From positions 1-43,771 of IMG/VR virus record IMGVR_UViG_3300010392_000788: 43,771 nucleotides of DNA. One strand, given 5' to 3'. The position numbers and the translations under genes were made by a program. Origin of the DNA: a virus. Of this stretch, positions 6,340-43,771 are shown piece after piece (the stretch's first letter is position 1; the number at the start of each line of letters is the position of its first letter). Below the pieces are notes generated by a model. It was not told the origin of the DNA and did no database searches. It saw nothing but the letters and a program-made list of their open reading frames with translations.

Positions 6340-6762
6340 CTACTGCTTATGTTTAGCGACGAAACCCCTAACCCAGTCATAGAACTGTTTCTTTCCGACG
6401 TATCCGGCATGGTTATCAATACCCCCATTGGCTTTCAAAGTGAACCTTGGAATCGGCCCGCCTTCCTGTCCCTTGATCGTCACTTTCCAGCCGGACTTCC
6501 GCATGGCTTCAACGACTCCATCTGCCTCAAACAGTCGGCAAGGGATGCAGAACTTCGGCTCAGTGTAGACCACAAGCTCGCTAGGCTCGGCAGCGACTGC
6601 AGCGCGGCCGACAGGCTTAGCGGAATCGGTGTTCGCATCTCTACGCGAAGACGCCCTTGCGTGCTGCGGCTGGCTAATATCAACGGTGCTTGTCTGAGCG
6701 GAATTGTCCGCCAATGGGACAAGCGACAACGCAAGCACTACAACGGCTAAAAGCTTTTTCAT
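6340..6762 (-). CDS. Exported thioredoxin/glutaredoxin-like protein
   Basis: A 140-residue protein with a clear signal peptide (MKKLLAVVVLALSLVPLA) and a linker to about residue 60. A small thioredoxin-fold domain follows: VVYTEPKFCIPCRLFEADG holds a CxxC redox motif, and GPIPRFTL fits the cis-proline loop. It should act outside the cytoplasmic membrane, reducing or exchanging disulfides. Its ATG overlaps the stop of the papain-like protease gene (TAATG), so the two are probably translated together. An exported thioredoxin is unusual for a phage. One possible job is to open disulfide-linked envelope proteins for the neighbouring proteases; that is inference. Confidence 0.75.
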   Translation of the reverse strand: MKKLLAVVVLALSLVPLADNSAQTSTVDISQPQHARASSRRDANTDSAKPVGRAAVAAEPSELVVYTEPKFCIPCRLFEADGVVEAMRKSGWKVTIKGQEGGPIPRFTLKANGGIDNHAGYVGKKQFYDWVRGFVAKHKQ

Positions 6763-7508
6763 TATTCTTTCCTTGCTAGAACAGTCCCCACCGCAACAGA
6801 CTCAAACGGGACCGCTTTTCGGCCCCAAAGGATTCCGTATCCGTTTTTCTCTCCGCCAGCAGAGTACTGCGTGCCATGGCTGTTGGCGATGATAATCCCG
6901 TAGTCTCTGCCGTTGTATGCAACGCCAAGGCCGCATACAAGGTGCCTCCACCACGATAACGCCAGCGTCACCGGCCTGGGGTCGACATCGTCAATTAGTG
7001 CAGATACCGCACCCTCGAAGTCATTTCTGCCCAGTTCGTTGAACGAGACGATTTTATTGGCCGACGATGAAGCGATCACCTCTGGTCGCTTCCAGAGGGA
7101 CATATCCTTACTGAAATTGGGATACACCTTGCAGTCGGGGATACCAAATTGGTCGATGTACCTGCATGCCTCTACCCCATATCCGCCGCGATTTCTCCCT
7201 TGCTTTCCACGGTATGCGGTCGCAAATGCACAAAGGTCTACACCTGAGATCCCTTGGTGGGCTAGCCTGTTTTCGACACAAGCCACCGTCCCGAACATCC
7301 AGCAATAGTTTGTTCGCTTCTGGGACTTGATCTTGCAGTATTTTTTGTGCCAGTGGACTGGCATGGATTGATTTGCGTTGTGCATATCAATCAATTGCTT
7401 CCACTGCGACCGATCATGCCTACGGCCCGAATACTCGGGGTAAGCAGAGAACTCAGGAACAGACTTATAGTCCCTGAGGATGTAGCCTTTACCTAGCAAT
7501 CTTGGCAA
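6762..7508 (-). CDS. Papain-like cysteine protease
   Basis: The protein has the C1-peptidase signature. QKRTNYCWMFGTV gives an oxyanion Gln six residues before the catalytic Cys, which is followed by Trp as in papain. The later SWWRHLVCGLGV supplies the His, and IANSHGTQY followed by NGYGIL supplies the Asn. Length is about 248 residues. No signal peptide is visible, so export would need a holin or another route. I chose a TTG at 7508 because GGAG lies 7 nt upstream; a TTG at 7556 or later starts are possible. The gene sits between two membrane-protein genes and the exported thioredoxin gene. A lytic, endolysin-replacing role is plausible but unproven; virion maturation is an alternative. Confidence 0.75.
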   Translation of the reverse strand: MPRLLGKGYILRDYKSVPEFSAYPEYSGRRHDRSQWKQLIDMHNANQSMPVHWHKKYCKIKSQKRTNYCWMFGTVACVENRLAHQGISGVDLCAFATAYRGKQGRNRGGYGVEACRYIDQFGIPDCKVYPNFSKDMSLWKRPEVIASSSANKIVSFNELGRNDFEGAVSALIDDVDPRPVTLALSWWRHLVCGLGVAYNGRDYGIIIANSHGTQYSAGGEKNGYGILWGRKAVPFESVAVGTVLARKE

Positions 7509-8271
7509 TGTACCGCTCCATTTCGGACACACTGGACGGGATGTCCCGCACTTCAATTAAGCTTCCGTTAGCACCCACAACAAGCATCGCTGACCGCTTC
7601 GGCGGCGCCCGGCTCATTGCGTTGCGAAGCCATGGCTCACTGGATGTGACATCCTGTGATGCGGCGATGCGGCGGCGCTCGATTCCGTTCGATTCAAGCA
7701 TTGCGGCAACCATCGCTGAGTAAACCACAGAGGATTCATCGGAATCCAGATCATCATCCGTAACGAATATAATCGAAGACACATCCAGCTGCACGACAGG
7801 ATCTTCCTCTTCGTCAATGACCTGATCGACGGAGATGACTTCACGTACTTTACTGATGATACCAGGCAAGACGCCCGAGTTGATGGACCACCAAATCACA
7901 AGCACCGCTGCTAGCGGCTTCCAGTTCCAGGACTGTCCATCGGAAGCAGGTTCGCCCTTTTTCAGCAGCTTAGGAACATTTTCCTTTGCGTATTCGGTTG
8001 CTCCCTTAAGTAAGATAGTGGCCGCAGAAACCGCATCCTCAACCCTTGGCAGCAACCCGGACACGATGCCAATTGTTGCGATACCGACCATCTGAGTGAA
8101 TGACAGGATTGCCGCAACGACTCCAAGCCATAGCTCAGGGCCAGAAAACCCCTCCTCCTGGCCATTAAACAGGTCCACAACCGAGCCGATCCATCCGTCC
8201 CGCCACAGAACAAAGGTCAGGTACATCACCCCGGCGCCGACAATCGTCTGAAACGTCTTGTTCTCTTTCAT
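7489..8271 (-). CDS. Three-helix membrane protein with soluble C-terminal domain
   Basis: A 260-residue protein with three predicted membrane helices: about residues 8-24, 46-74 and 117-140. An acidic stretch (VIDEEEDPVVQ) and a soluble alpha/beta domain (IIFVTDDDLDSDESS to the C-terminus) follow. It precedes and slightly overlaps the papain-like protease gene. Topology and place are compatible with a holin or an anchor for lysis enzymes, but it is longer than usual holins. No family recognised. Confidence 0.6.
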   Translation of the reverse strand: MKENKTFQTIVGAGVMYLTFVLWRDGWIGSVVDLFNGQEEGFSGPELWLGVVAAILSFTQMVGIATIGIVSGLLPRVEDAVSAATILLKGATEYAKENVPKLLKKGEPASDGQSWNWKPLAAVLVIWWSINSGVLPGIISKVREVISVDQVIDEEEDPVVQLDVSSIIFVTDDDLDSDESSVVYSAMVAAMLESNGIERRRIAASQDVTSSEPWLRNAMSRAPPKRSAMLVVGANGSLIEVRDIPSSVSEMERYIAKIAR

Positions 8272-8280
8272 GGTCTGTTC

Positions 8281-8547
8281 TTAAAGGTATTTTTCGGCGA
8301 GCTTTTTCAGCATGTACTCGATGGCGTACTTAATAACCATAGAGAAAAGCATTGCCACGATCGGGTTGCCAAAATTGCGATCGCCAAGCAGGCGACGGCG
8401 ATCACGCAAGAGAATGGTCTCAAGCTCAGCAACAGCGGCTTTCTCTCGCTCTCGCGGGTCAGTGTACGATTCCGTTGCCTCAATAGCCCTGGCAGCTGCC
8501 CGCCGAGCCAGAACTCTTTGCCCTGATGTCATTCTATTTGGATGCAC
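8281..8547 (-). CDS. Small basic protein with amphipathic or membrane C-terminal helix
   Basis: An 88-residue protein: a basic, Ala/Arg-rich helical N-terminus (QRVLARRAAARAIEATESY), then a hydrophobic C-terminal helix (NPIVAMLFSMVIKYAIEYML) ending in a Lys-rich tail. The GTG at 8547 has GAGG six nt upstream and overlaps the end of the protease gene by 14 bases; an ATG at 8532 is the alternative. It lies between a secreted protease and a three-helix membrane protein. It could be a small holin-like or pinholin-like peptide, but this is only suggested by size and place. Confidence 0.55.
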   Translation of the reverse strand: MHPNRMTSGQRVLARRAAARAIEATESYTDPREREKAAVAELETILLRDRRRLLGDRNFGNPIVAMLFSMVIKYAIEYMLKKLAEKYL

Positions 8548-9277
8548 GCTTCACCTCTGCTACCAGCTTCCGCAGCTTGGCGTTACTGGTGGTAAATGTA
8601 TTGTAAGGATTAACACCGCTGATAGTTGCAACCAGCTCTCCACTTTCTGTGAAAAATCCGCACCCGCTGTCGCCTGTCACTGCTAGCTGACCAACCAACA
8701 TAAGCCCATTCGGCTCCATTGCAGCCCCTGGAGAAAAGGACTGCTCCAGGGAATCTTGGTCGTGCTGCACAGAGATCTCTTCAACGACTCTGCCTGAAAA
8801 CTTGCGGCGATCTGGAAAAATCACCTTTCCAGACATAGAAGGCGTGAAGATTGAATGATACCCCTGCCCGTACCCAAATGCCGAAACTCGCTGCCCAATA
8901 GGCTTCTGCAGCGTGGCGATCACCACTGGCTCAGCCTCAACATCCTGAGAGGTTTTTACCACTGCAAGGTCGCAGTCCTTGTACCCCCCAGCGAACTCCG
9001 CTTCGTAGCAGATACCGCGATCGTAATCGGTAACGATAATTGCACCACTCCGCTGCGCCACGCAGTGGTAGCACGTGGTAAACAACCCGTCGCCGATGTA
9101 GGTACAAGAACTGTAAGCTGGATACGTGCCGTTTTCGTTGACGCTCTCAACAAACAGGCCGTGAGACGCATCTTCTGGATCGCCTGCCAAGCTGGCAGTT
9201 GCAAAAAAAGAAAGCAGCACGGCAGCGACGACTAGCCTAGAGAATACCAGCCAAGGCGACGATCGTAAGGAAAACAT
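8534..9277 (-). CDS. Secreted trypsin-like serine protease
   Basis: About 247 residues with an N-terminal hydrophobic export signal (LVFSRLVVAAVLLSFFATASLA). The mature part carries the chymotrypsin-fold triad: TTCYHCV (His), KDCDLAVVK (Asp) and TGDSGCGFF (nucleophile Ser in GDSG). Paired cysteines fit extracytoplasmic disulfides. It should act in the periplasm or outside the cell. The ATG at 9277 was preferred to an in-frame TTG at 9289; neither has a clear Shine-Dalgarno sequence. Signal-bearing trypsin-like proteases are rare in phages, and this one is encoded close to a papain-like protease and an exported thioredoxin. Confidence 0.8.
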   Translation of the reverse strand: MFSLRSSPWLVFSRLVVAAVLLSFFATASLAGDPEDASHGLFVESVNENGTYPAYSSCTYIGDGLFTTCYHCVAQRSGAIIVTDYDRGICYEAEFAGGYKDCDLAVVKTSQDVEAEPVVIATLQKPIGQRVSAFGYGQGYHSIFTPSMSGKVIFPDRRKFSGRVVEEISVQHDQDSLEQSFSPGAAMEPNGLMLVGQLAVTGDSGCGFFTESGELVATISGVNPYNTFTTSNAKLRKLVAEVKRASK

Positions 9278-9323
9278 AGAAAATCGCAACTATTTCTGTT
9301 TGAGTTTGAAGTTTCTTTGACAT
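9237..9323 (-). CDS. Possible 28-residue single-span membrane peptide
   Basis: A short frame, starting MSKKLQTQTE and continuing into a hydrophobic helix (VAIFYVFLTIVALAGIL), lies in the 215-bp gap after the helicase gene. It overlaps the start of the secreted protease gene. Positive N-terminus plus one membrane helix is a normal plan for tiny phage membrane proteins. No good Shine-Dalgarno sequence precedes it, so it is uncertain. Confidence 0.3.
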   Translation of the reverse strand: MSKKLQTQTEIVAIFYVFLTIVALAGIL

Positions 9324-14470: not shown

Positions 14471-15151
14471 TCACAGTAACATTGGTTCAAAAATTGGCGT
14501 CTTGCCGCCAAGAACGATCCCGCAACCGATCATAGGCTTGCCTGAGTATTTGACACCATACTCCTGTTGGTGATGCTCCCAGTCAACCCCGCATCCAACC
14601 TGCATTCCAAACACACGGTTCCGCAGGTTGGCACAAAATTCAACGCCAGCTTGGGCATGATGATGGCCCTGCACTACGCTATTGAATTCGGCCTTTGCGT
14701 TGTTGAATGCAGCAATCCTTTGCCCGCCTTTGCCGCGATCGCCATGCTGGTATATTACACCATCAATAACGATTTGTCCATACCGATAATGGACATTCCA
14801 GCCCTTTGGAAGTAGGAATATTTCTCCAAATTTTCTAAGCATCTCTTCCGGTATGCCAACCTCCTGGGCCCACCTGTACGGTAGCACGTCATGGTTCCCC
14901 AGCATAAGGTCAGCCTTGGGAAACGCCTTAACCAGCTTCCGGATCTGCTTCATTGCCTGCGAATATTCCCCGAGAGGATTCTTCTGCTGTGGCTTTTTTG
15001 TGTGAAACGAGAGCGCACAGTTGTCGACAATGTCACCGATATGGACAACTCGGTTGCACTTCCACTTGCGGTAGGTTGCTCTGAGGAAGGTGATATACCC
15101 TGGGAGCATGCACGGGCAGTGGGTGTCGCCGATTATCAGTACGTTACTCAC
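14471..15151 (-). CDS. Calcineurin-like metallophosphoesterase (first copy)
   Basis: A 226-residue protein with the full metallophosphoesterase motif series: GDTH (D9, H11), HIGDIVD (D40), GNHD (N86-D88), a later QHGDRG, and GHHH. These residues bind two metal ions and hydrolyse phosphomonoesters or diesters; the substrate cannot be told. The GTG start at 15151 overlaps the RusA stop (GTGA) and has GAGGG six nt upstream. An upstream in-frame extension runs antisense-like through RusA and was rejected. The phage carries a second, different metallophosphoesterase on the plus strand. Confidence 0.85.
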   Translation of the reverse strand: MSNVLIIGDTHCPCMLPGYITFLRATYRKWKCNRVVHIGDIVDNCALSFHTKKPQQKNPLGEYSQAMKQIRKLVKAFPKADLMLGNHDVLPYRWAQEVGIPEEMLRKFGEIFLLPKGWNVHYRYGQIVIDGVIYQHGDRGKGGQRIAAFNNAKAEFNSVVQGHHHAQAGVEFCANLRNRVFGMQVGCGVDWEHHQQEYGVKYSGKPMIGCGIVLGGKTPIFEPMLL

Positions 15152-15567
15152 AGGCCACCCTCTGAAATTTGGACAGACACACGCGCACCCCTGGGGTCGC
15201 TCGATGGACAAATGTGCTTGGTGGCCACTAGCCGACATACCTGGCCGTCGTCCTTCCAGCAAATCCCATTGAGAGCGTCCATGACCGCCTTGGCAACGTT
15301 ATCGATGTCCGGACGCTTGCAGTGCATTCTGATGGGGTATGGGGACTTCCGCTGTTGCTCTCGCTTAGTCAGCGGAAACCAAGCACAGATATGCAAAGTG
15401 ACTGGACCATCAAAAAAAGAGCCGGAATGCTTGCCTGCTTCGGCAATCTTCCGGCGAAAGTCATCGATTGGGCCAGACGGGTTATAGGCCCAGCCCCCCG
15501 GCCCGAATCGAGCCCGAGGCTGGGCGATTGGAGTCCCTAGAATTGTGAATTGCACTGGCTTTGGCAT
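15148..15567 (-). CDS. rusA: RusA-like Holliday junction resolvase
   Basis: A protein of about 139 residues with the RusA hallmarks. GTPIAQPRAR near the start is the usual RusA opening (G.P..K.R.R). KRPDIDNVAKAVMDALNGI then supplies the catalytic acidic residues, followed by WKDDGQV with further Asp residues. RusA dimers cleave four-way DNA junctions and debranch phage DNA before packaging. It is the first gene after the strong leftward promoter at 15606-15634. ATG at 15567 chosen; a GTG at 15579 has an AGGA too close to work well. Confidence 0.85.
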   Translation of the reverse strand: MPKPVQFTILGTPIAQPRARFGPGGWAYNPSGPIDDFRRKIAEAGKHSGSFFDGPVTLHICAWFPLTKREQQRKSPYPIRMHCKRPDIDNVAKAVMDALNGICWKDDGQVCRLVATKHICPSSDPRGARVSVQISEGGL

Positions 15568-32028: not shown

Positions 32029-34197
32029 ATGGAAATCGATCGATTTAAGGACGTGCCAAGCGAAATGATGGCAGAGAGACGGTGGGTGAATTGGGGAAAA
32101 TTCCTTAGAAACGGGGGAATGACCAAAGCGCCTTTCAAGCCTTGCCCATCTAGCCCATCTTTACAGATGGCTAGATCGAATGATAGCTCGACGTGGGGCA
32201 CTTTCGAGGAAGCGATCAAGACGATCGCCTCTCACGAAGCGGACGAACTCGGAATTGGGTTCATGCTTGGAGATGGATGGTGCGGCATTGATCTGGATCA
32301 CGTCGCCCCAGAAGGCGAAGTACTCGGCCAAGCTCAGGAAATCATCAACATGACCGCAGGAGGGGGGTACATGGAGAGATCTCCTGGTGGGGACGGCATT
32401 CACATCATCTTCAACTGCGACAAACCTGCCGGGTACACCTCGGTGAGAAAACTAGACATCGGATCTGCGGAATTCTACGGCAAAGGCCGGTTTTTTACCG
32501 TTACGGGTGAAAAATTAGACGAAAACAGGTCTGTGTGCGAAGGTGGCGGGGGCCTATACAGGGTCGCGGAATCGTTCTTCACAAAGGGTCCAGTGCCGCA
32601 AAACAAGCCAGTTGTGGCAACTAAACTGCCACTAAATGCCTCTCAGGCAGAAATATATGCCCAAACTATCATTGATAGCGAGTCATTTGGCGAGGGAAGC
32701 CGAAACTCATCCATGTTCAGGATTGCCGGGCACCTGTGGAAGAAGTGTCAAGATGAATCTGAGGTGAAAAGGCTCTGCCTGAGGGTTAACGATGCTGTTT
32801 TTTCGCCGCCGCTGAGCGAGCACGAGGTTATGCGTTGCGCCTATAATGGCATCACAAAAGGAACCCCAAGAAACGACAACTACAACGCCGCTGAAGTCTA
32901 CACAGAAGATCAGATTGAGTTTACGTTTGATAAAGACGCCTTTATCAAGCACTGCAAGGCGTTGGCCAAGGAACAGGTTCCAATCAGCGAATTTGAGTCA
33001 CTTGGCGGGCTGATTGGCGAGTATGTGCGAAATTACAAAGACCTGTCGCCTGAGTATTTGCCGGAGCTTGGTGTTGCCTCGGCGTTGAACCTGATGTCCA
33101 CACTGATTGGCGGCTCTGTGGAGTGTGAGGGGTGCGTGCCAAACCTGTTTACAGTTGGCTTAGCCCCTTCAGGTGCTGGCAAAGACTACTGCCGTCGCCT
33201 CACATCGGCCACCCTGGAGCAGTCCGGAATGGGTAATCGCAACGGGCCAACTGGGCTCTCTTCTGGTGAAGGAATGGTGTCGCGGCTTGCCGACCAAAAT
33301 ATTACACTTTTTCAGCTTGATGAGGCTGGTGAGTTACTGGCAGAATCAGGAAACGCCAAGAATGCTGTAGCCGCACGCATCGGGAAGTTCTTGAAAGAGG
33401 CTTACTCTACGTCCGGTAGCGTATGGAGACCCAATTGCAAAGCCGATTCGAAGTCAAACATCACTATTCAATACCCTTACCCTGTGGTGTACTTCACGAC
33501 GACGCACGAAAGATTCTGGCAGTCGTTTTCGGAAGAATCGGTGGAAGATGGGTTCCTGGGTCGATTGCTGGTGTTTGAGCAGGCTGGGTACACGCTTCCA
33601 AGGCGAGGGACAGTATATAAACCACCGGTTCCGTCTGATAAGCTCATTAGGCTTGCCTCGGCTTGGGCAGATGCAAGAGGTGCGGGAGACCTCCCTCCTG
33701 AGCTGTTTGCTGGCAACCGATTGCACTGGACCGTTGGACCGAATGCCAGAAAATGCCTTGACGACTTCTTTTATGAAGTGGACTACAACGCATGGTCGCC
33801 GCGAAAGAATAACGGTGACTCAGCGTTATGGAAGCGAACCAAAGACAAGATCATGAAGGTTGCTACAGTCTTAGCGGCATCAAGGCAGGGCCCTACCGAG
33901 GACGGAGTCATCGAGGAAGTCGATGCAGTGCTCGCAATTAACCTAGTTAAGTCGCTGACGTATAGGGTGCTAAGAAGGGTCAAAGACGACCTTGTCTCTG
34001 GCGAGCATGACCGTGCCCAGAAGAAAATTATGACCGCAATCGAGAGACTGGGTGGTTTTCGGGAGGGGGTGATCTCCCGCCATGTAAGGGGGCTCGATAA
34101 AAGAATCAGAAATTTAGCGTTAGAGGACTTGATTCAAGCAGGACAGCTTGTTAGAATCATGAAATCAGACGGAAAGGTGTGGCTCATAAAACCATAG
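32029..34197 (+). CDS. Primase-polymerase / helicase-like ATPase fusion
   Basis: A 722-residue protein. The N-terminal archaeo-eukaryotic primase domain has CGIDLDHV (D88, D90), SPGGDGIHIIF (H125) and YGKGRFFTVTG (R154). A helical linker (about 200-285) follows. The second half is a DUF3987-like P-loop ATPase: Walker A GLAPSGAGKDY (377-387), Walker B LFQLDEAGE (427-435), and VYFTTTHERFW. It should prime and unwind phage DNA at the fork. AGGG lies five nt upstream of the ATG. It is the first gene of the rightward operon; no separate DNA polymerase was found. Confidence 0.85.
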   Translation: MEIDRFKDVPSEMMAERRWVNWGKFLRNGGMTKAPFKPCPSSPSLQMARSNDSSTWGTFEEAIKTIASHEADELGIGFMLGDGWCGIDLDHVAPEGEVLGQAQEIINMTAGGGYMERSPGGDGIHIIFNCDKPAGYTSVRKLDIGSAEFYGKGRFFTVTGEKLDENRSVCEGGGGLYRVAESFFTKGPVPQNKPVVATKLPLNASQAEIYAQTIIDSESFGEGSRNSSMFRIAGHLWKKCQDESEVKRLCLRVNDAVFSPPLSEHEVMRCAYNGITKGTPRNDNYNAAEVYTEDQIEFTFDKDAFIKHCKALAKEQVPISEFESLGGLIGEYVRNYKDLSPEYLPELGVASALNLMSTLIGGSVECEGCVPNLFTVGLAPSGAGKDYCRRLTSATLEQSGMGNRNGPTGLSSGEGMVSRLADQNITLFQLDEAGELLAESGNAKNAVAARIGKFLKEAYSTSGSVWRPNCKADSKSNITIQYPYPVVYFTTTHERFWQSFSEESVEDGFLGRLLVFEQAGYTLPRRGTVYKPPVPSDKLIRLASAWADARGAGDLPPELFAGNRLHWTVGPNARKCLDDFFYEVDYNAWSPRKNNGDSALWKRTKDKIMKVATVLAASRQGPTEDGVIEEVDAVLAINLVKSLTYRVLRRVKDDLVSGEHDRAQKKIMTAIERLGGFREGVISRHVRGLDKRIRNLALEDLIQAGQLVRIMKSDGKVWLIKP

Positions 34198-35688: not shown

Positions 35689-36297
35689 ATGAGACGATTT
35701 TTTACATCTGACTGGCACATAGACCATCGCGATGACAGGCCGATGCCAGGCTATCGCAGGCATTTTTTCACTGCTGCGGAGTGGCGAAAGCATTTGCCAG
35801 CAATCACCAAAAGCATGATGCGGCCAGGTGACAGGTTGTATATGCTTGGAGATCTCAGCTCATATGGAAAGGTAGGCAAGTGCATGAAGCACGTCCCTAG
35901 AGGAACTTGGTTCATTCGTGGCAACCATGACGGAAGCGACGAGAAATGTCAGCGATGCTTTGGTGGTGCGTTCAGGCAGTGTATGGAGATCAAGCTCAGC
36001 AAGACGCATAAGTGTTGGTTGTCGCACTACTGCCACATGGTGTGGCCGTCCAGCCACTACGGGTCGATGCACCTGTATGGGCATACGCATGATCTTTTGG
36101 AGGGGAGGATGGATACGCTTTTCCCGAACCGCAAGTCAATGGATGTGTCGCCAGAGACTGCCTACAGGCTTTTGGGTGAGTTCAGGCCCTTTACAGAGGA
36201 AGAGATCCTTGATATACTTGGCGATCGGAGTGGGCACGACTGTGTGTCCAACTACCGCAAGCAAGAGGCAATCAATCTAATCAACCTTGGCCAATAA
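35689..36297 (+). CDS. Calcineurin-like metallophosphoesterase (second copy)
   Basis: A 202-residue protein with SDWHIDH (D8, H10), GDLSS (D55), RGNHDGS (N79-D81), SHYCH (H113) and YGHTH (H132, H134). All metal-binding positions of the phosphoesterase core are present. It is most like the short YfcE-like/phage enzymes with a phosphodiester or nucleotide substrate; the exact substrate is unknown. It differs strongly from the leftward copy, so it is not a recent duplicate. Confidence 0.85.
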   Translation: MRRFFTSDWHIDHRDDRPMPGYRRHFFTAAEWRKHLPAITKSMMRPGDRLYMLGDLSSYGKVGKCMKHVPRGTWFIRGNHDGSDEKCQRCFGGAFRQCMEIKLSKTHKCWLSHYCHMVWPSSHYGSMHLYGHTHDLLEGRMDTLFPNRKSMDVSPETAYRLLGEFRPFTEEEILDILGDRSGHDCVSNYRKQEAINLINLGQ

Positions 36298-37040: not shown

Positions 37041-37421
37041 ATGAGCAAGACTGTTGACGTTGTGTTTCCTGTAAAGTTTACAACTGTCATCCCGGAGGGG
37101 TATGAATTGGTTCGGATTGGTGTTCCTGATACTGGAGAGCTGTTCGTTGATGGCACTGGCGAGATTCTGGAATGTCAGTGGGTCTGGAGGCATGGCGGGT
37201 CAGCCGCATGGGTACAGCACCGGGCCATTGTGGAGAAAGTGGAGACGCTATCTCCGACTGATAAGGCAATACGGGAAGTTGAACTTATACTGGGTACGTC
37301 TCTCATGGAATTACATCGCTGGCGTCTAGAGGGAATTATTGAGTTACTGAAGTCAGCTAAGAAACATAACAAGGGGGGAAGTGATGCCAGCGGTAAAGGA
37401 AACAGTGAATGCCACGTTTGA
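37041..37421 (+). CDS. Tandem paralogue 2, unknown
   Basis: A 126-residue protein with the shared core: PEGYELVRIGVPDTGELFVD, GEILECQWVW, HRAIVEK, then a helical segment and a His/Lys/Gly-rich end. It starts one base after paralogue 1 (GGAG upstream) and begins with the same five residues, MSKTV. Its end overlaps paralogue 3 by 38 bases. Confidence 0.7.
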   Translation: MSKTVDVVFPVKFTTVIPEGYELVRIGVPDTGELFVDGTGEILECQWVWRHGGSAAWVQHRAIVEKVETLSPTDKAIREVELILGTSLMELHRWRLEGIIELLKSAKKHNKGGSDASGKGNSECHV

Positions 37422-37701
37422 AGTAGAAATTCCAAGCGGGTGGGAGTTTTTGAGATTTGGGGTCCCAAAGGCTGGTGAATGCTACCTTTCAAATCGCGGT
37501 GGTGGGGTATTAAAATGCGAGGTCGGATGGGCTGTACCTAGAAATCGTCCATTGACGCGGCACAGGGTGATACTGAAAAGGCACCGCTCGTTAGACCAGA
37601 TTGAACAAGTGGCAAGCAAGGGCATTGAGGAAGCCTACTGTCCGCGAGATCTGGAGCGATTTGAAAAGATAGTTCAGTTGGTTAAGGCATTAAAACAATA
37701 G
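37384..37701 (+). CDS. Tandem paralogue 3, unknown
   Basis: A 105-residue protein: EVEIPSGWEFLRFGVPKAGE, CYLSNRGG, VLKCEVGWAVP, RHRVILKRH, then a charged helical tail. Closest to paralogue 4 in the core. GGGGGAAGTG precedes the ATG; the in-frame GTG three bases earlier is possible. Confidence 0.7.
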   Translation: MPAVKETVNATFEVEIPSGWEFLRFGVPKAGECYLSNRGGGVLKCEVGWAVPRNRPLTRHRVILKRHRSLDQIEQVASKGIEEAYCPRDLERFEKIVQLVKALKQ

Positions 37702-37717
37702 ACAAGGAGATTAAGCG

Positions 37718-38038
37718 ATGACAAAGATAAACGCAAAAATTCACGTTGAGTTTGAAGTTGAAATTCCAGATGGGTGGGAGTTTGTCAGACTTGCTGTTCC
37801 ACAGGATGGTGAATACTACCTTTCAGAAGATGGGCGGGTGTTGGAATGTGAGAGTGGATGGGCTACGCCGACAGTGCGACCATGGATGCGGTATAGGGCG
37901 ATAGTGAGGAAGGACGACTTGCTTGCGAAGATTGAAAGCAAGGCAAGGGAGTACGCAAAGAGTGGAGCCTACCAGTTCGATCGAACCAGATTCCTTGAGA
38001 TCGCGGATCTGGCCAAAAAACTGAGAAACCAAAATTAG
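37718..38038 (+). CDS. Tandem paralogue 4, unknown
   Basis: A 106-residue protein: EVEIPDGWEFVRLAVPQDGE, YYLSEDGRVLECESGWATP, RYRAIVRKDD, and a Lys/Ala-rich helical tail. AAGGAG is placed well before the ATG. Four different but clearly related genes in a row suggest repeated duplication, perhaps for alternate partners or to counter host defences; function unknown. Confidence 0.7.
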   Translation: MTKINAKIHVEFEVEIPDGWEFVRLAVPQDGEYYLSEDGRVLECESGWATPTVRPWMRYRAIVRKDDLLAKIESKAREYAKSGAYQFDRTRFLEIADLAKKLRNQN

Positions 38039-38247: not shown

Positions 38248-38302
38248 GGTAATCGCCCCGCTGCGATGCGATTGGCCAGTAGATTGCTCTGACGGATTGC
38301 CG

Positions 38303-38331
38303 TTGACTGCACCCGCACGACTCGCTAGCCT
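38303..38331 (+). promoter_or_regulatory. Possible weak promoter of the accessory segment
   Basis: TTGACT (38303-38308, 5 of 6) is followed by 17 nt and TAGCCT (38326-38331, 3 of 6). It would start transcription just before the gene at 38366. The -10 is poor. Confidence 0.25.
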
Positions 38332-38365
38332 ATCGCTGGGCGACCATTGCCCCATTCACCATCAC

Positions 38366-38899
38366 ATGCCAGAGACCAAAACCATGCAAGCAATCAGAAA
38401 GTCAATCAGCTACGTCACCCCAGACGGCGAAGCATTCTCGGCTAGGTCCGACGCTAACGCGCACCTTCGCCGACAGATGCTTTCGCTATCCGATTTAATC
38501 GTGAGAAACTATGCGGTACAGCAGGCCACAACATCCGCTATCCGCGTAACAATCAGGGGCGCAATCAACAAGCACCATGCAGCTATGGTCGCAATCTACA
38601 ATTCGGTCGCTCCCATCTTCGGTGCCGACCAGAGGGATAGCCTCATCGAGGAGCGCACATGCTACATCACCCCAGACGGGTCCGAATTCGCATCCGAACC
38701 GCTCGCAAGGGAGCACCTAACAAAACAACTAGGCCAATTAGCGGAATTGATTGTGCTGCGAGTGACAAACACAATGAACCTCAACCCGTCAGAATGTAAC
38801 GTTATCCGGACATCATTCTGCACCAGCGGGGGCCTCGATGAGATCGTCCGATATATTGCTCCAGTTTTCGGGGTAACGTCGACCGATACTGACGAATAG
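38366..38899 (+). CDS. Protein with internal twofold repeat
   Basis: A 177-residue protein made of two similar halves. The first has SYVTPDGEAFSARSDANAHL and ends SVAPIFGAD; the second has CYITPDGSEFASEPLAREHL and ends YIAPVFGV. The Y.TPDG..F....A..HL motif resembles short motifs found in other phage proteins. The rest is helical. ATG at 38366 or 38384; neither has a Shine-Dalgarno. A terminator follows. Function unknown. Confidence 0.7.
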   Translation: MPETKTMQAIRKSISYVTPDGEAFSARSDANAHLRRQMLSLSDLIVRNYAVQQATTSAIRVTIRGAINKHHAAMVAIYNSVAPIFGADQRDSLIEERTCYITPDGSEFASEPLAREHLTKQLGQLAELIVLRVTNTMNLNPSECNVIRTSFCTSGGLDEIVRYIAPVFGVTSTDTDE

Positions 38900-38930: not shown

Positions 38931-38960
38931 AACCCCAGCCCCATAGGCTGGGGTTTTTTT
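38931..38960 (+). terminator. Rho-independent terminator
   Basis: AACCCCAGCC (38931-38940), loop CCATA, GGCTGGGGTT (38946-38955), with a run of seven T ending at 38960. It isolates the upstream genes from the amidoligase cassette. Confidence 0.95.
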
Positions 38961-39122: not shown

Positions 39123-40946
39123 ATGTCTCGTTATTTAATGACGATCGGGTTCGACCGCTCGCCCGTTCTGTCCGCCCTATCTAGCCTCAGTGACCGATAC
39201 CTCATAGTGGGTCTGGAACAGATTTTTCTTGGCTGCCGGGGAGTTGCCTTTTCAAAGGCAGGGAACGAACTAAAGGTCTTTTTCCACGGCTCGATACTGG
39301 GCAGTGATCTCGCCTCTGGGGTCCGAGACTTTTTTCCTGATGCCCGGGGCCGTTGCATGGAAAGGCTTTCACGGCACTTGAGTTACCGCGATTTGGATGA
39401 CAGCATCCGATTAAATGAATATCGCATCACTGACCCCGACCCTGCCATTGGGTATCTAAATTCACACCGCATCGACTGTCGGAGCCGTAGTTTCTTTACA
39501 ATCGAGGGGTACGGCAGCCAGTTAGCCCCGGCGCTGCCCGATTTGTCGATCGCTGAAATCCTCACTGGCCAGATCGGATTCAGGTCTGATTGGGACGAAA
39601 ACGGTAACGTTGTTGCTGTGATGAACGCGAAGACGTATCGTACAGTGCGCGCAAGCATCGAACCCCATCAACTCGTATGCCAAATCGACGGTGATCTTGC
39701 GTCGCCGGTACAGTCGTCGAATAATCCCGAAAGGGCACGCATGTTTCGCGAGGATGCGTATAGACTACTCAATCCGGCTCAATCGACGTCGACTAGCGGC
39801 AGCCTGGCTACCCCTGCCGGGCATGCCCCAGTGTTGGGCCAGCATGTCGCCACGTCACCCCAAGCCGCCCCTGAGCCAGTGTATACATTTGCTGGCGACA
39901 GTGACCGATTCTCGCCTCTCATTGACCGCTGCACTTTTTACGAGCGATGCAACAGAGACCGTTACCGTCCTGCGCTATCGTTAGAGAGAAACGCAACCGA
40001 CGGCGATCTTCTGTCAGACGGATGCGAAATCAATATATGCTTAGCATGCGGATCGCAGCTACCAGGTTCAGATTCAGGATATAGGCTTCCGCATGGGGGA
40101 CGCACCTGCTGTACGAGCTGCCTGAATTGCGTCGGGCTTGGCGTGCATGACGATCGCGTAGTCCCACTGAACACGATACCGGTTTTAGGGTCCGCATCCC
40201 TGAATCGCTACAACCATGCGAACCCCACCATGTATTCCGCGAGTGGACAGAAGCCTTATCGGATCGGATACGAAGTGGAAAAAGAAGATCCGGATTTTTT
40301 GAGCGCCCACGATATGTCGTCTTATGCTGGCAAAGTGGATTGGATCGCGGTCTCTGATGGTTCACTGGAACACGGTGGATTTGAGTTAGTTAGCCCCGCG
40401 TACAATCTCGCCAACAGGGACGCTATCAATCGATCGTTTCGTGAACTGGGGGACGCAATTAACGCGAGAGTGACTAAGCGATGTGGCGGGCACATTACAG
40501 TTAGCCAAGCCAACGTATCCGGTGAAACTCTAGCCGATCGTTTAGGCGACTTCCACTGTTTACTGTTCGCACTATACCCCAATCGCCTACTAGGCAATTG
40601 GGCGAAGATTCGCCGAGCGGATCAGATGGAAGCCGGTGCGCAAAAGTATCGGGCGATCAACGTCAAGAGAGAATGCGTAGAATTCCGCATTTTCTCAGCC
40701 GTGCGCAACGTTGCCATGCTTGAATGGCGAACCGATTTAGTTAAATGGGGGCTCAGCCGAAAGCGTAAGAAAGTCGAAAAAGCGATTGACGACCAGAGCG
40801 GTTTTCTCATTCGGCACTTGCGAAAAAGATACGCCCCGGAAAAGTTAGCCCGGCGGTTGGAATTGTTTGCGGGATTCCAAACGTGGTACTACGGCGATGA
40901 ATTGCCGGAAGACCACCCAGCCGCCCGATACTGCCCCGCTCGTTAG
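39123..40946 (+). CDS. GS-like amidoligase (COOH-NH2 ligase) with zinc ribbon
   Basis: A 607-residue protein in three parts. Residues 1-200 are an unassigned N-terminal domain, followed by a Ser/Pro/Ala linker (about 215-255). A zinc ribbon lies at 306-336 (CLACG, CCTSCLNC). The amidoligase domain, about 378-545, has IGYEVEKE (ExE metal site), DGSLEHGGFELVSP, CGGHITVS and YRAINVK..CVEFRIF. These are the conserved motifs of the glutamine-synthetase-like ligase family that joins amines or amino acids to carboxyl groups using ATP. No Shine-Dalgarno. It is followed by a small gene and by a glutamine amidotransferase/cyclotransferase fusion gene, the partners expected for this family. Substrate unknown. 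Confidence 0.85.
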   Translation: MSRYLMTIGFDRSPVLSALSSLSDRYLIVGLEQIFLGCRGVAFSKAGNELKVFFHGSILGSDLASGVRDFFPDARGRCMERLSRHLSYRDLDDSIRLNEYRITDPDPAIGYLNSHRIDCRSRSFFTIEGYGSQLAPALPDLSIAEILTGQIGFRSDWDENGNVVAVMNAKTYRTVRASIEPHQLVCQIDGDLASPVQSSNNPERARMFREDAYRLLNPAQSTSTSGSLATPAGHAPVLGQHVATSPQAAPEPVYTFAGDSDRFSPLIDRCTFYERCNRDRYRPALSLERNATDGDLLSDGCEINICLACGSQLPGSDSGYRLPHGGRTCCTSCLNCVGLGVHDDRVVPLNTIPVLGSASLNRYNHANPTMYSASGQKPYRIGYEVEKEDPDFLSAHDMSSYAGKVDWIAVSDGSLEHGGFELVSPAYNLANRDAINRSFRELGDAINARVTKRCGGHITVSQANVSGETLADRLGDFHCLLFALYPNRLLGNWAKIRRADQMEAGAQKYRAINVKRECVEFRIFSAVRNVAMLEWRTDLVKWGLSRKRKKVEKAIDDQSGFLIRHLRKRYAPEKLARRLELFAGFQTWYYGDELPEDHPAARYCPAR

Positions 40947-41011
40947 CGTATCACCCATCACCATCCATTGAAAACACTCTGTCTATTTACTTCCAAACAA
41001 TAGGTTTAGCT

Positions 41012-41326
41012 ATGAATTTCTTTGTCGTAGACTTCCGTTCGTCTCGTGAACGATACTCCGCACTAGACGCAATTGCGGATTCCGATGTGAGTATCAATAA
41101 CGTAGCCACATGCTCGGGCACGCGATTGCAGAGGCAACAATCAATTGGAGCAATCGGGATGCCCTCTCCTAGTGGTTGTAACGTTTACTGCCGGTTGGGG
41201 ATCTACGGGCAGCCACAGCCACTTGAAAAAGTAAAATCGGCTATCAAAACGTCCCTGATGCAATATCGCAGCGGGTCCGAACTTGAGGCAGAATTCAGTA
41301 TCGGCCCAGTCTGTGTTTGCCGCTAA
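41012..41326 (+). CDS. Small unknown protein between the amidoligase and GATase genes
   Basis: A 104-residue protein without signal or membrane segment, rich in Ser and Arg and ending GPVCVCR. It sits between the two enzymes of the cassette with gaps of 65 and 54 bases, and, like them, lacks a Shine-Dalgarno. It could be the peptide that is modified, a chaperone or an unrelated factor; the sequence does not tell. Confidence 0.6.
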   Translation: MNFFVVDFRSSRERYSALDAIADSDVSINNVATCSGTRLQRQQSIGAIGMPSPSGCNVYCRLGIYGQPQPLEKVKSAIKTSLMQYRSGSELEAEFSIGPVCVCR

Positions 41327-41380
41327 AAACAGACACCTCACCACACTATTTCAACATCACTTAATTACTGGAAAAACACA

Positions 41381-43093
41381 ATGTGTATCATCATTCACAA
41401 GCCTAAAAATATCCGCATCAGCAAAGACGTGGCAGCCAACTCTGTCAGAATCAACGGCGACGGGTTCGGCATCCTTTATCTGGATTCGATGAAAGTCGTC
41501 CGAACGATGGATATGGAGCACGCCAAGAAGCTGCTGAGGACAAAGCGACCTTACGTAGCGCATTGCAGATGGGCGACCAATGGCCCTGTGTGCTTGGAAA
41601 ACACGCACCCATTCCCTCTAAAGGATGGTTCGTGGCTATTCCACAATGGGGTAGTCGGATCCCTGCAAGACAGCCAAGAAAACGACTCTCGCCAAGTGGC
41701 CTTTATGCTCGATATGCTACCGCGTGGAAAATGGGAAACGTTTCTATCAATGTTTGACTCGCGTTTTTTGATCGCGAAGCCAGACGGTGAAATCATCAAG
41801 ACCGGGGGCTGGGTAGACCATGAAGGTGCTTGCTACTCAAAAGCAAACGTATTAACCAAGCAATATGGCCGGTACAGCACGTCTGGCGGGTGCGGCACGC
41901 GATACGGGAACGTGATGGACTACGGCGACGACTGGACGTGGCGAGATTATGACGCAGCCCGGCGGGCACGCGGGGTCAATACGACCGCAAAAAAGAACCC
42001 GGCTCAAAAGTCGGATAACATAGCCGGAAAACTGAAAAAGAAGGTATGCGCCGCAACCGATAAATACGTAGTGGATGGAGCGTCACTGATTGCCGTATAC
42101 GGCACTCTAAAAAGGGGTCTCGGCAACCACCGATGCCTGGCTGGCGCCACGTTAGTGGGCACTGGCGTAACTTTTTCACGGCATCGATTGTGCGTCCAGG
42201 GGCTACCGTATTTGATCCAGGGGGCGAACGACAGAAACCAGGGACGCCGGGTAGATGTCGAAGTGTACTCGGTGCCTGACAAGGTGTTGGAGGACGTTGA
42301 CGCACTGGAGGGGCACCCACACTTGTATTGCAGGAAATCTTGCTGCGTTACCCTGGACGACACAAAAGAGACAATCTTTACGCAGGCCTACTTTGCAAGT
42401 GAGTCACGCGACAGTGGACGCTACGCTTTAAGATACCCAATCGGTGGTGACTCTGTGATGGTATGTAGCAAGAACGGCGGCGTAGTCTTCGAAAGCTCTA
42501 TTGCCCCAGCCAAGCTAAGCGACGAGAAGAAAAAGACGCTCGACGATGTCAGTATGCCGGACGATTGGTCAGTGATCCTAGCCTCAGTCGACGAAGCCGC
42601 ACTCGCGGATGGATGGAAAGGCTGGGAAGAGTGGCACGCTTACGACTCTGATACTTTCTTGGAATACGTCGACGAGCAGGGCCACTCATCGATCTGTTTT
42701 GAGGCCGAAGCGTACAGGAACGGATCCATCGAAGCCCCAACGCAGCCTGAGAGGGATCTCCGTTTATGGCAGATCACGGAATTTATCGCTGACCGCGAGG
42801 GGGCCGCGATGGGTTGGGGAGACTGGCGGGGTTGGTTTGATAATGGAGTCACCGAAGCCCTTGACGTCTTGTCATTCACCAACGCCAACACCGAGAGGCT
42901 GCGCAAGCAATACGAGATTGAGGCAGTGTTTTTGAGCCGTGACGAGCAACCCGACACGGACGCTATCAGCGACGAAGCTATCCAGGCCGCTATTGCGAAG
43001 GATTTAGCGGATCACCCAGAGCTAGGGGAGGAATACGGCGACGATGAGTATGTGTGTGTGAACGGTGTTTGGCAGCGAGGACTAGACGTATAA
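41381..43093 (+). CDS. Class-II glutamine amidotransferase fused to gamma-glutamylcyclotransferase-like domain
   Basis: A 570-residue fusion. Residues 1-190 are an Ntn-type GATase: Cys2 right after the start Met, HCRWATNG (61-68) and FHNGVVGS (87-94) for glutamine binding and the oxyanion hole. Residues 235-370 are AIG2/GGCT-like: VYGTLKRGLGNH (239-250) and DVDALEGHPHLYCR (305-318), with E310 the likely catalytic acid. Residues 390-570 contain two similar acidic W-rich segments (GWKGWEEW, GWGDWRGW) of unknown role. The first domain should release ammonia from glutamine; the second should cleave gamma-glutamyl bonds. No Shine-Dalgarno; start fixed by Cys2. Confidence 0.85.
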   Translation: MCIIIHKPKNIRISKDVAANSVRINGDGFGILYLDSMKVVRTMDMEHAKKLLRTKRPYVAHCRWATNGPVCLENTHPFPLKDGSWLFHNGVVGSLQDSQENDSRQVAFMLDMLPRGKWETFLSMFDSRFLIAKPDGEIIKTGGWVDHEGACYSKANVLTKQYGRYSTSGGCGTRYGNVMDYGDDWTWRDYDAARRARGVNTTAKKNPAQKSDNIAGKLKKKVCAATDKYVVDGASLIAVYGTLKRGLGNHRCLAGATLVGTGVTFSRHRLCVQGLPYLIQGANDRNQGRRVDVEVYSVPDKVLEDVDALEGHPHLYCRKSCCVTLDDTKETIFTQAYFASESRDSGRYALRYPIGGDSVMVCSKNGGVVFESSIAPAKLSDEKKKTLDDVSMPDDWSVILASVDEAALADGWKGWEEWHAYDSDTFLEYVDEQGHSSICFEAEAYRNGSIEAPTQPERDLRLWQITEFIADREGAAMGWGDWRGWFDNGVTEALDVLSFTNANTERLRKQYEIEAVFLSRDEQPDTDAISDEAIQAAIAKDLADHPELGEEYGDDEYVCVNGVWQRGLDV

Positions 43094-43217: not shown

Positions 43218-43258
43218 CCGATACCACTCGTAAGTTACTTGTGGTGTCGGTTTTTTTT
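43218..43258 (+). terminator. Rho-independent terminator after the cassette
   Basis: CCGATACCAC (43218-43227) and GTGGTGTCGG (43241-43250) pair with a single wobble, followed by eight T (43251-43258). It ends the amidoligase cassette transcript. Confidence 0.95.
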
Positions 43259-43594: not shown

Positions 43595-43771
43595 ACGCTG
43601 GCCCACGCTGGCCCCTCTGGCCCACGCTGGCCCCTCTGGCCCACGCTGGCCCCCTCTGGCCCACGCTGGCCCCCTCTGGCCCACGCTGGCCCCCTCTGGC
43701 CCACGCTGGCCCCTCTGGCCCACGCTGGCCCCCTCTGGCCCACGCTGGCCCCTCTGGCCCACGCTGGCCCC
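43595..43771. repeat. Right-end 19/20-bp tandem repeat array
   Basis: Copies of CCACGCTGG start at 43603, 43622, 43641, 43661, 43681, 43701, 43720, 43740 and 43759. The spacing alternates between 19 and 20 because the C run is four or five long. The unit is the same as at the left end. The array stops at the window edge mid-unit. Confidence 0.95.

Follow-up and report, generated by a model that had tools for sequence, protein, structure and literature searches.

The window analysed here is the whole of IMG/VR virus record IMGVR_UViG_3300010392_000788 (43,771 bases). At the end of a plus-strand gene block, three open reading frames (ORFs) lie side by side between two terminators: P1, predicted to be a very divergent glutamine synthetase (GS)-like amidoligase; P2, an orphan small protein; and P3, a class-II glutamine amidotransferase (GATase) fused to a gamma-glutamylamine cyclotransferase (GGACT)-like domain (Table 1). 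Many phages are already known to carry a gene set of this kind, and the cassette represents a divergent form of it. Its layout, proposed in a preliminary description made from the sequence alone, is borne out by the ORFs, by codon usage and by a hairpin on either side. The annotated frame was the best of six by codon usage for all three genes, with P2 the weakest and with P1 and P3 themselves part of the training set. The downstream hairpin was found by eye, as its loop exceeds the limit of the terminator scan.

Table 1. Features of the cassette and its borders
Feature	Position	Strand	Basis
Intrinsic terminator, 5' of cassette	38931..38955	+	Terminator scan; RNA fold -21.6 kcal/mol, z -4.7
P1, 607 aa, divergent GS-like amidoligase	39123..40946	+	ORF
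P1 residues 1-300, low-confidence model, no detected homologue	39123..40022	+	Pfam, PHROGs, locus comparison, AlphaFold2
P1 residues 306-336, CxxC cluster (CLAC, CTSC, CLNC), candidate zinc ribbon adjoining ligase domain	40038..40130	+	Motif
P1 residues 376-600, predicted GS-like amidoligase domain	40248..40922	+	Alignment of 54, AlphaFold2, Foldseek
P2, 104 aa, orphan small protein between both enzymes	41012..41326	+	ORF; codon usage mildly favours frame
P3, 570 aa, GATase-GGACT fusion with extended tail	41381..43093	+	ORF, Pfam, folds
P3 residues 1-160, predicted class-II (Ntn) glutaminase domain; C2 nucleophile, R63, N89-G90, D102	41381..41860	+	Alignment, Foldseek
P3 residues 161-232, linker and helix, low confidence	41861..42076	+	Predicted model
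P3 residues 233-350, GGACT-like domain; YGTL 240-243, E310	42077..42430	+	Pfam, 3jub alignment, Foldseek
P3 residues 396-418, Trp-rich repeat copy 1	42566..42634	+	Repeat analysis
P3 residues 463-485, Trp-rich repeat copy 2	42767..42835	+	Repeat analysis
Terminator-like hairpin and T8, 3' of cassette	43218..43258	+	By eye; RNA fold z -3.9

The divergent amidoligase P1

Standard libraries do not recognise P1. Its sole Pfam match was a chance-level one to an unrelated family (E = 0.25), PHROGs gave none, and at E ≤ 1 it did not match PF12224 (Amidoligase_2), a model that only 6 of the 54 aligned amidoligase proteins matched at E ≤ 0.001. A tblastn search of annotated phages with P1 and a sequence search of solved structures with the P1 family returned no match and no credible match, respectively; scanning viral contigs with P1 or P3 as a single sequence recovered no relative of either, so that alignments were needed. 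Aligned with a distant protein of ctfjg026, P1 retrieved 78 viral loci, and iterated profiles united the divergent amidoligases with the Pfam-positive ones. After iteration, P1 matched the AL-family hidden Markov model (HMM) at an independent E-value of about 1e-57, a score that is not independent of P1, which was itself among the profile sequences. The hhalign comparison of the divergent-ligase profile with the Pfam-positive profile, both small, gave a probability of 94.7%.

AlphaFold2 modelled residues 376-600 with a predicted local distance difference test (pLDDT) score mostly above 90. The top solved match of P1 in Foldseek was gamma-glutamyl-methylamide synthetase (GmaS, PDB 9qur), followed by glutamine synthetases, with unrelated folds starting from an E of about 0.005. 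Viral matches included named phage amidoligases, with E down to 4e-12, one of them the Pseudomonas phage tf amidoligase I2FLP2. Nine residues (E384, E386, D412, S414, E421, H457, R488, E520, and R522 in P1 numbering) are invariant over the 54 aligned sequences. The predicted model thus has a GS-like fold, and by alignment P1 keeps the conserved acidic, His, and Arg active-site positions. With Amidoligase_2 it shares the ExE, DxS, E, GGH, and EFR blocks as well as the fold match to annotated phage amidoligases; in the HxH motif the second His is replaced by Thr (T459), as in one third of the relatives.

The preliminary description had attached a zinc ribbon to this ligase. The amidoligase part of that claim is supported by the model and the Foldseek matches, but the ribbon stays a candidate defined by its CxxC motif, in a region with pLDDT below 50. 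At least two CxxC-type pairs occur in the N-terminal extension of 11 of the 61 extended proteins, the window's own copy (L001) included. The approximately 375 residues N-terminal to the ligase domain were modelled without confidence, and for residues 1-300, singled out in the preliminary description, neither relatives nor a confident fold emerged.

The glutaminase–cyclotransferase fusion P3

The N-terminal domain of P3 matches Pfam GATase_4 at E = 4.7e-5, slightly below the curated cut-off, and Foldseek aligned residues 1-160 with the glutaminase of GlmS (3ooj, E = 1.1e-6; 1xff, E = 4.9e-6). Its model has an N-terminal nucleophile (Ntn) glutaminase fold, which it shares with the GlmS domain together with the N-terminal Cys, but no sugar-isomerase domain was detected in P3. 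The following 70-residue linker is absent from most fused relatives. The second domain is a strong Pfam GGACT match (E = 2.9e-16; 60.6 bits against a curated cut-off of 22.8), and Foldseek matched residues 233-350 with human and mouse GGACT (1vkb, E = 7e-8). P3 has the YGTL loop and catalytic Glu in common with these enzymes (3jub, 1vkb), but it is phage-encoded and fused to a glutaminase. E310 aligns with E82 of human GGACT (3jub), the residue mutated in PDB 3jud. In the alignment of fused proteins, R63, N89, G90, D102, Y240-L243, and E310 are present in 40 of 40 sequences and C2 in 39, with one gap.

Sequence and model together sharpen the assignment of the cyclotransferase to a GGACT-type rather than a ChaC- or GGCT-proper-type enzyme, hence gamma-glutamyl-amines would fit better than glutathione. 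A glutathione-type (ChaC) cyclotransferase came behind in the ranking, since the Foldseek scores of GGACT entries were far better. The joining of a class-II GATase to a GGCT-like domain and the catalytic motifs of three families, both read in the preliminary description, are therefore confirmed by fold matches, by Pfam and by conservation over 54 amidoligases and 40 fusions, and the predicted structures of P1 and P3 support the GS-like, Ntn, and GGACT folds alike.

The W-rich C-terminal repeats that had seemed unusual are present as two degenerate copies with an identical Trp spacing of 16-3-3 (W396/412/415/418 and W463/479/482/485), though their repeat score was equalled in 5 of 200 shuffles. 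The tail has no relatives in the loci compared and no confident fold.

Linkage, distribution and genomic setting

Locus counts given here are counts of records, some of which are near-copies of each other, and not of independent events. When loci were chosen only by the GATase-GGCT alignment, an amidoligase was present in 37 of 42, and in all 25 that had at least 4 kb upstream. When they were chosen only by the amidoligase, a GATase was present in 69 of 78, and in 60 of the 61 that had at least 3.5 kb downstream. Both genes are on the same strand in all linked loci of these two sets (25/25 and 60/61). The pairing of amidoligase and glutaminase is thus real and near-universal.

The fusion, which the preliminary description regarded as unusual, turned out to be common, being present in 62 retrieved viral loci and two annotated phages. 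Fused viral cassettes, including those of Phage C75C1 (OQ984151) and Podoviridae ctfjg026 (MW202828), have the same fusion order as the window and an amidoligase upstream on the same strand, but the C-terminus carries CxxC pairs in 33 of 56 non-redundant fusions, as against the Trp-rich tail of P3. In the GATase tree the fused proteins group together, except for one long-branched sequence from a metagenome-assembled genome and one unfused row, with 3 label changes against 14 in shuffles; the window forms a deep branch that lacks a close sister. The amidoligase tree places P1 with ligases from unfused cassettes and not in the main clade of fused ones, a position suggestive of partner exchange. 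Support is open at several forks of these trees, and P1 is on a long branch.

In ten loci, GATase and GGCT are two ORFs of one frame divided by an in-frame TGA. An in-frame TGA replaces the nearly invariant Trp118 of the GATase-GGCT gene in L026, L028, L029, L036-L038, L040-L042, L044, and L047 (for example L037:6001-7083, codon 118), and it persists between lineages in which over half of the codons differ. The frame runs on through GGCT and a C-terminal zinc-ribbon motif where the contig is long enough, TGG encodes Trp at five other positions, and TGA is the stop codon of the partner amidoligase. These genes are candidates for UGA readthrough or for a split gene. Reassignment of the whole code is unlikely, given this use of TGA as a stop next door and the failure to find any tRNA on the retrieved stretches.

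A set of 80 loci from bacterial genomes was picked by GATase-GGCT patterns that fell in the GGCT part. An amidoligase lies near GGCT in 32 of them, a GATase in 8 and a fusion in three, two of which nest in the viral fusion clade. L163, L166, L167, L171, L176, L184, L190, and similar loci (mostly Myxococcota) have an amidoligase, a weaker GGCT match in one ORF and a further GGCT in the next, with no GATase detected in the flanks. Elsewhere, two amidoligases flank or accompany the GATase (L053, L057, L058, L068, L075, L080, L081, L085, L089), and in L075 and L089 an ATP-grasp relative adjoins the cassette. The GATase of L053 (6928-8007) has a C-terminal half that is GGCT-like by eye but is without YGTL and the catalytic Glu (LDRFHAG against LDALEGHP elsewhere), and apparently carries a dead cyclotransferase domain.

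Iyer et al. (2009) is reportedly the founding paper on this gene family. Clusters of GS-like amidoligase, AIG2/GGCT, and GATase-II genes in phages, with no defined substrate, were given as known background in the preliminary description and do appear in three papers (PMC5498523, PMC10580990, PMC3890496). In RIO-1-like podoviruses, seven genes that include amidoligases, ATP-grasp, GGCT, and GATase are described as a 'peptidoglycan modification cassette' and hypothesised to prevent superinfection (PMC5498523), and action on peptidoglycan is itself a hypothesis in that paper and in PMC10580990; LUZ24-like phages carry the same gene set (PMC3890496; PMC3517423), and OM43 phages an amidoligase and a GATase (PMC10580990). 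The window resembles the podovirus cassette (RIO-1/PSA-HP1, phiEco32, LUZ24, PaP3, tf) in clustering an amidoligase, a class-II GATase, and a GGCT near replication genes. The podovirus enzymes, however, are encoded separately, and a second amidoligase and an ATP-grasp ligase occur alongside them, whereas in the window GATase and GGCT are fused, only P1 matches amidoligase models and no ORF matches the phage tf ATP-grasp in a single-sequence query. Peculiar to the window are the very divergent ligase, the lack of a detected second amidoligase or ATP-grasp, the orphan P1 N-terminus, the orphan P2, and the two-copy Trp-rich tail. A literature search, with most subscription journals outside its reach, found no paper on a GATase-GGCT fusion.

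The minus-strand genes of the window include portal, major head, terminase, tape-measure, and tail-connector genes and thus identify a tailed phage. A 19-20-base GC-rich tandem repeat is common to both ends (1-111 and 43598-43771), hence the genome, broken in the repeat, may be nearly complete and circular. Terminase comparison assigned no host, with approximately 31% identity to phages of many hosts, and a search of a defence-system library gave no match. The plus-strand block that the cassette closes opens with a primase/helicase (32029-34197). Upstream of the cassette are tandem 106-aa ORFs (37381-38038), paralogue-like by eye (VEIPxGWEF...), and a 200-aa ORF (38297-38899) with an apparent internal duplication (YxTPDGxxF...L...LIV). 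Peptidase matches on the minus strand are weak for a papain-like (6762-7556) and clear for a trypsin-like protein (8534-9289). Two calcineurin-like phosphoesterases are present (35689-36297 and 14471-15262); excerpts of PMC10580990 also report such genes in OM43 phage genomes that have the amidoligase and GATase.

A putative writer and eraser of gamma-glutamyl-type amides

GS-like ligases phosphorylate a carboxylate, which is then attacked by an amine or ammonia; class-II GATases free ammonia from glutamine; and GGACT splits gamma-glutamyl-amines into 5-oxoproline and the amine. By analogy, P1 is predicted to use ATP to activate a carboxylate for amide formation, most likely at a gamma-glutamyl or comparable side-chain carboxylate. 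The P3 glutaminase domain would probably provide the ligase with glutamine-derived ammonia, and the GGACT domain would cleave gamma-glutamyl-amine bonds to 5-oxoproline and a free amine. Both the ammonia feeding and the gamma-glutamyl editing envisaged in the preliminary description are plausible. P3 would thus unite two openers of gamma-glutamyl-nitrogen bonds in one chain beside P1, a maker of such bonds, and from this pairing we infer a writer/eraser module. We consider the cassette to be, probably, a reduced and divergent phage writer/eraser of gamma-glutamyl-type amides, the likeliest setting being the remodelling of a host component during infection, for which an envelope peptide is the leading candidate in the literature. 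A narrower version, in which P3 glutaminase and eraser act as one unit with P1 for reversible gamma-glutamyl tagging of a specific target chosen by the Trp-rich tail or the orphan N-terminal half of P1, is rather unlikely.

Several observations weigh against a writer/eraser. Neither Pfam nor PHROGs recognise P1, which Foldseek matches to GS structures with a modest score (E = 1.7e-4) and with a template modelling (TM) score that is low partly because about 375 residues are unmodelled. Neighbouring genes point to no substrate, and the papers on the cassette, as excerpted, report no tested substrate and no biochemical evidence for any phage member. In 39 loci, some on truncated stretches, the GATase is without a detected GGCT, so the eraser is not obligatory; in many bacterial loci, mostly Myxococcota, an amidoligase and a GGCT occur with no GATase detected in the flanks, so ammonia feeding is not obligatory either.

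In butirosin biosynthesis the BtrJ/BtrG pair adds a gamma-glutamyl protecting group and then removes it. The phage ligase might similarly add glutamate or ammonia to a peptide, possibly P2, or to an amine, from which the GGACT domain would strip a temporary gamma-glutamyl protecting group. The phage tf GGCT is annotated as BtrG-like and adjoins an ATP-grasp gene, P2 sits between both enzyme genes, and the nearest solved relative of the P3 domain is named a gamma-glutamylamine cyclotransferase. But the phage tf query detected no ATP-grasp gene in the window, P2 had no match in Pfam, PHROGs, or the loci retrieved up to that comparison, and the gap between ligase and GATase is below 100 bp in 45 of 106 cassettes, so a dedicated substrate gene is not conserved at that place. 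We regard such modification of a peptide or small molecule as doubtful, though worth weighing.

Salvage of nitrogen and glutamate, in which glutamine and gamma-glutamyl-amines are scavenged for nucleotide and protein synthesis with no specific target, would suit two domains that both open gamma-glutamyl amide bonds, and excerpts of PMC10580990 list the amidoligase and GATase of OM43 phages as auxiliary metabolic genes. However, an ATP-spending ligase is almost always present, which is costly for pure salvage, and neither Pfam nor PHROGs recognised nucleotide-biosynthesis genes near the cassette; this explanation seems improbable. Hypermodification of DNA or virion, for example an amine-bearing base or amidated capsid residues, is very improbable: replication genes are found close to the cassette, both here and in several relatives, but Pfam or PHROGs scans found no DNA-modification enzymes among the approximately 40 window proteins.

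The writer/eraser reading of the cassette therefore remains our preferred one. P1 illustrates how annotation libraries overlook many phage amidoligases, as reflected in the few aligned proteins (6 of 54) that the Pfam model matches. With one ligase and one fused glutaminase-cyclotransferase, the fused, reduced form was the smallest of the sets found and hence the simplest to express and assay. Among phages the cassette is widespread, and its near-perfect linkage together with the GGACT-type cyclotransferase would narrow its chemistry to gamma-glutamyl-amine or amide bonds.

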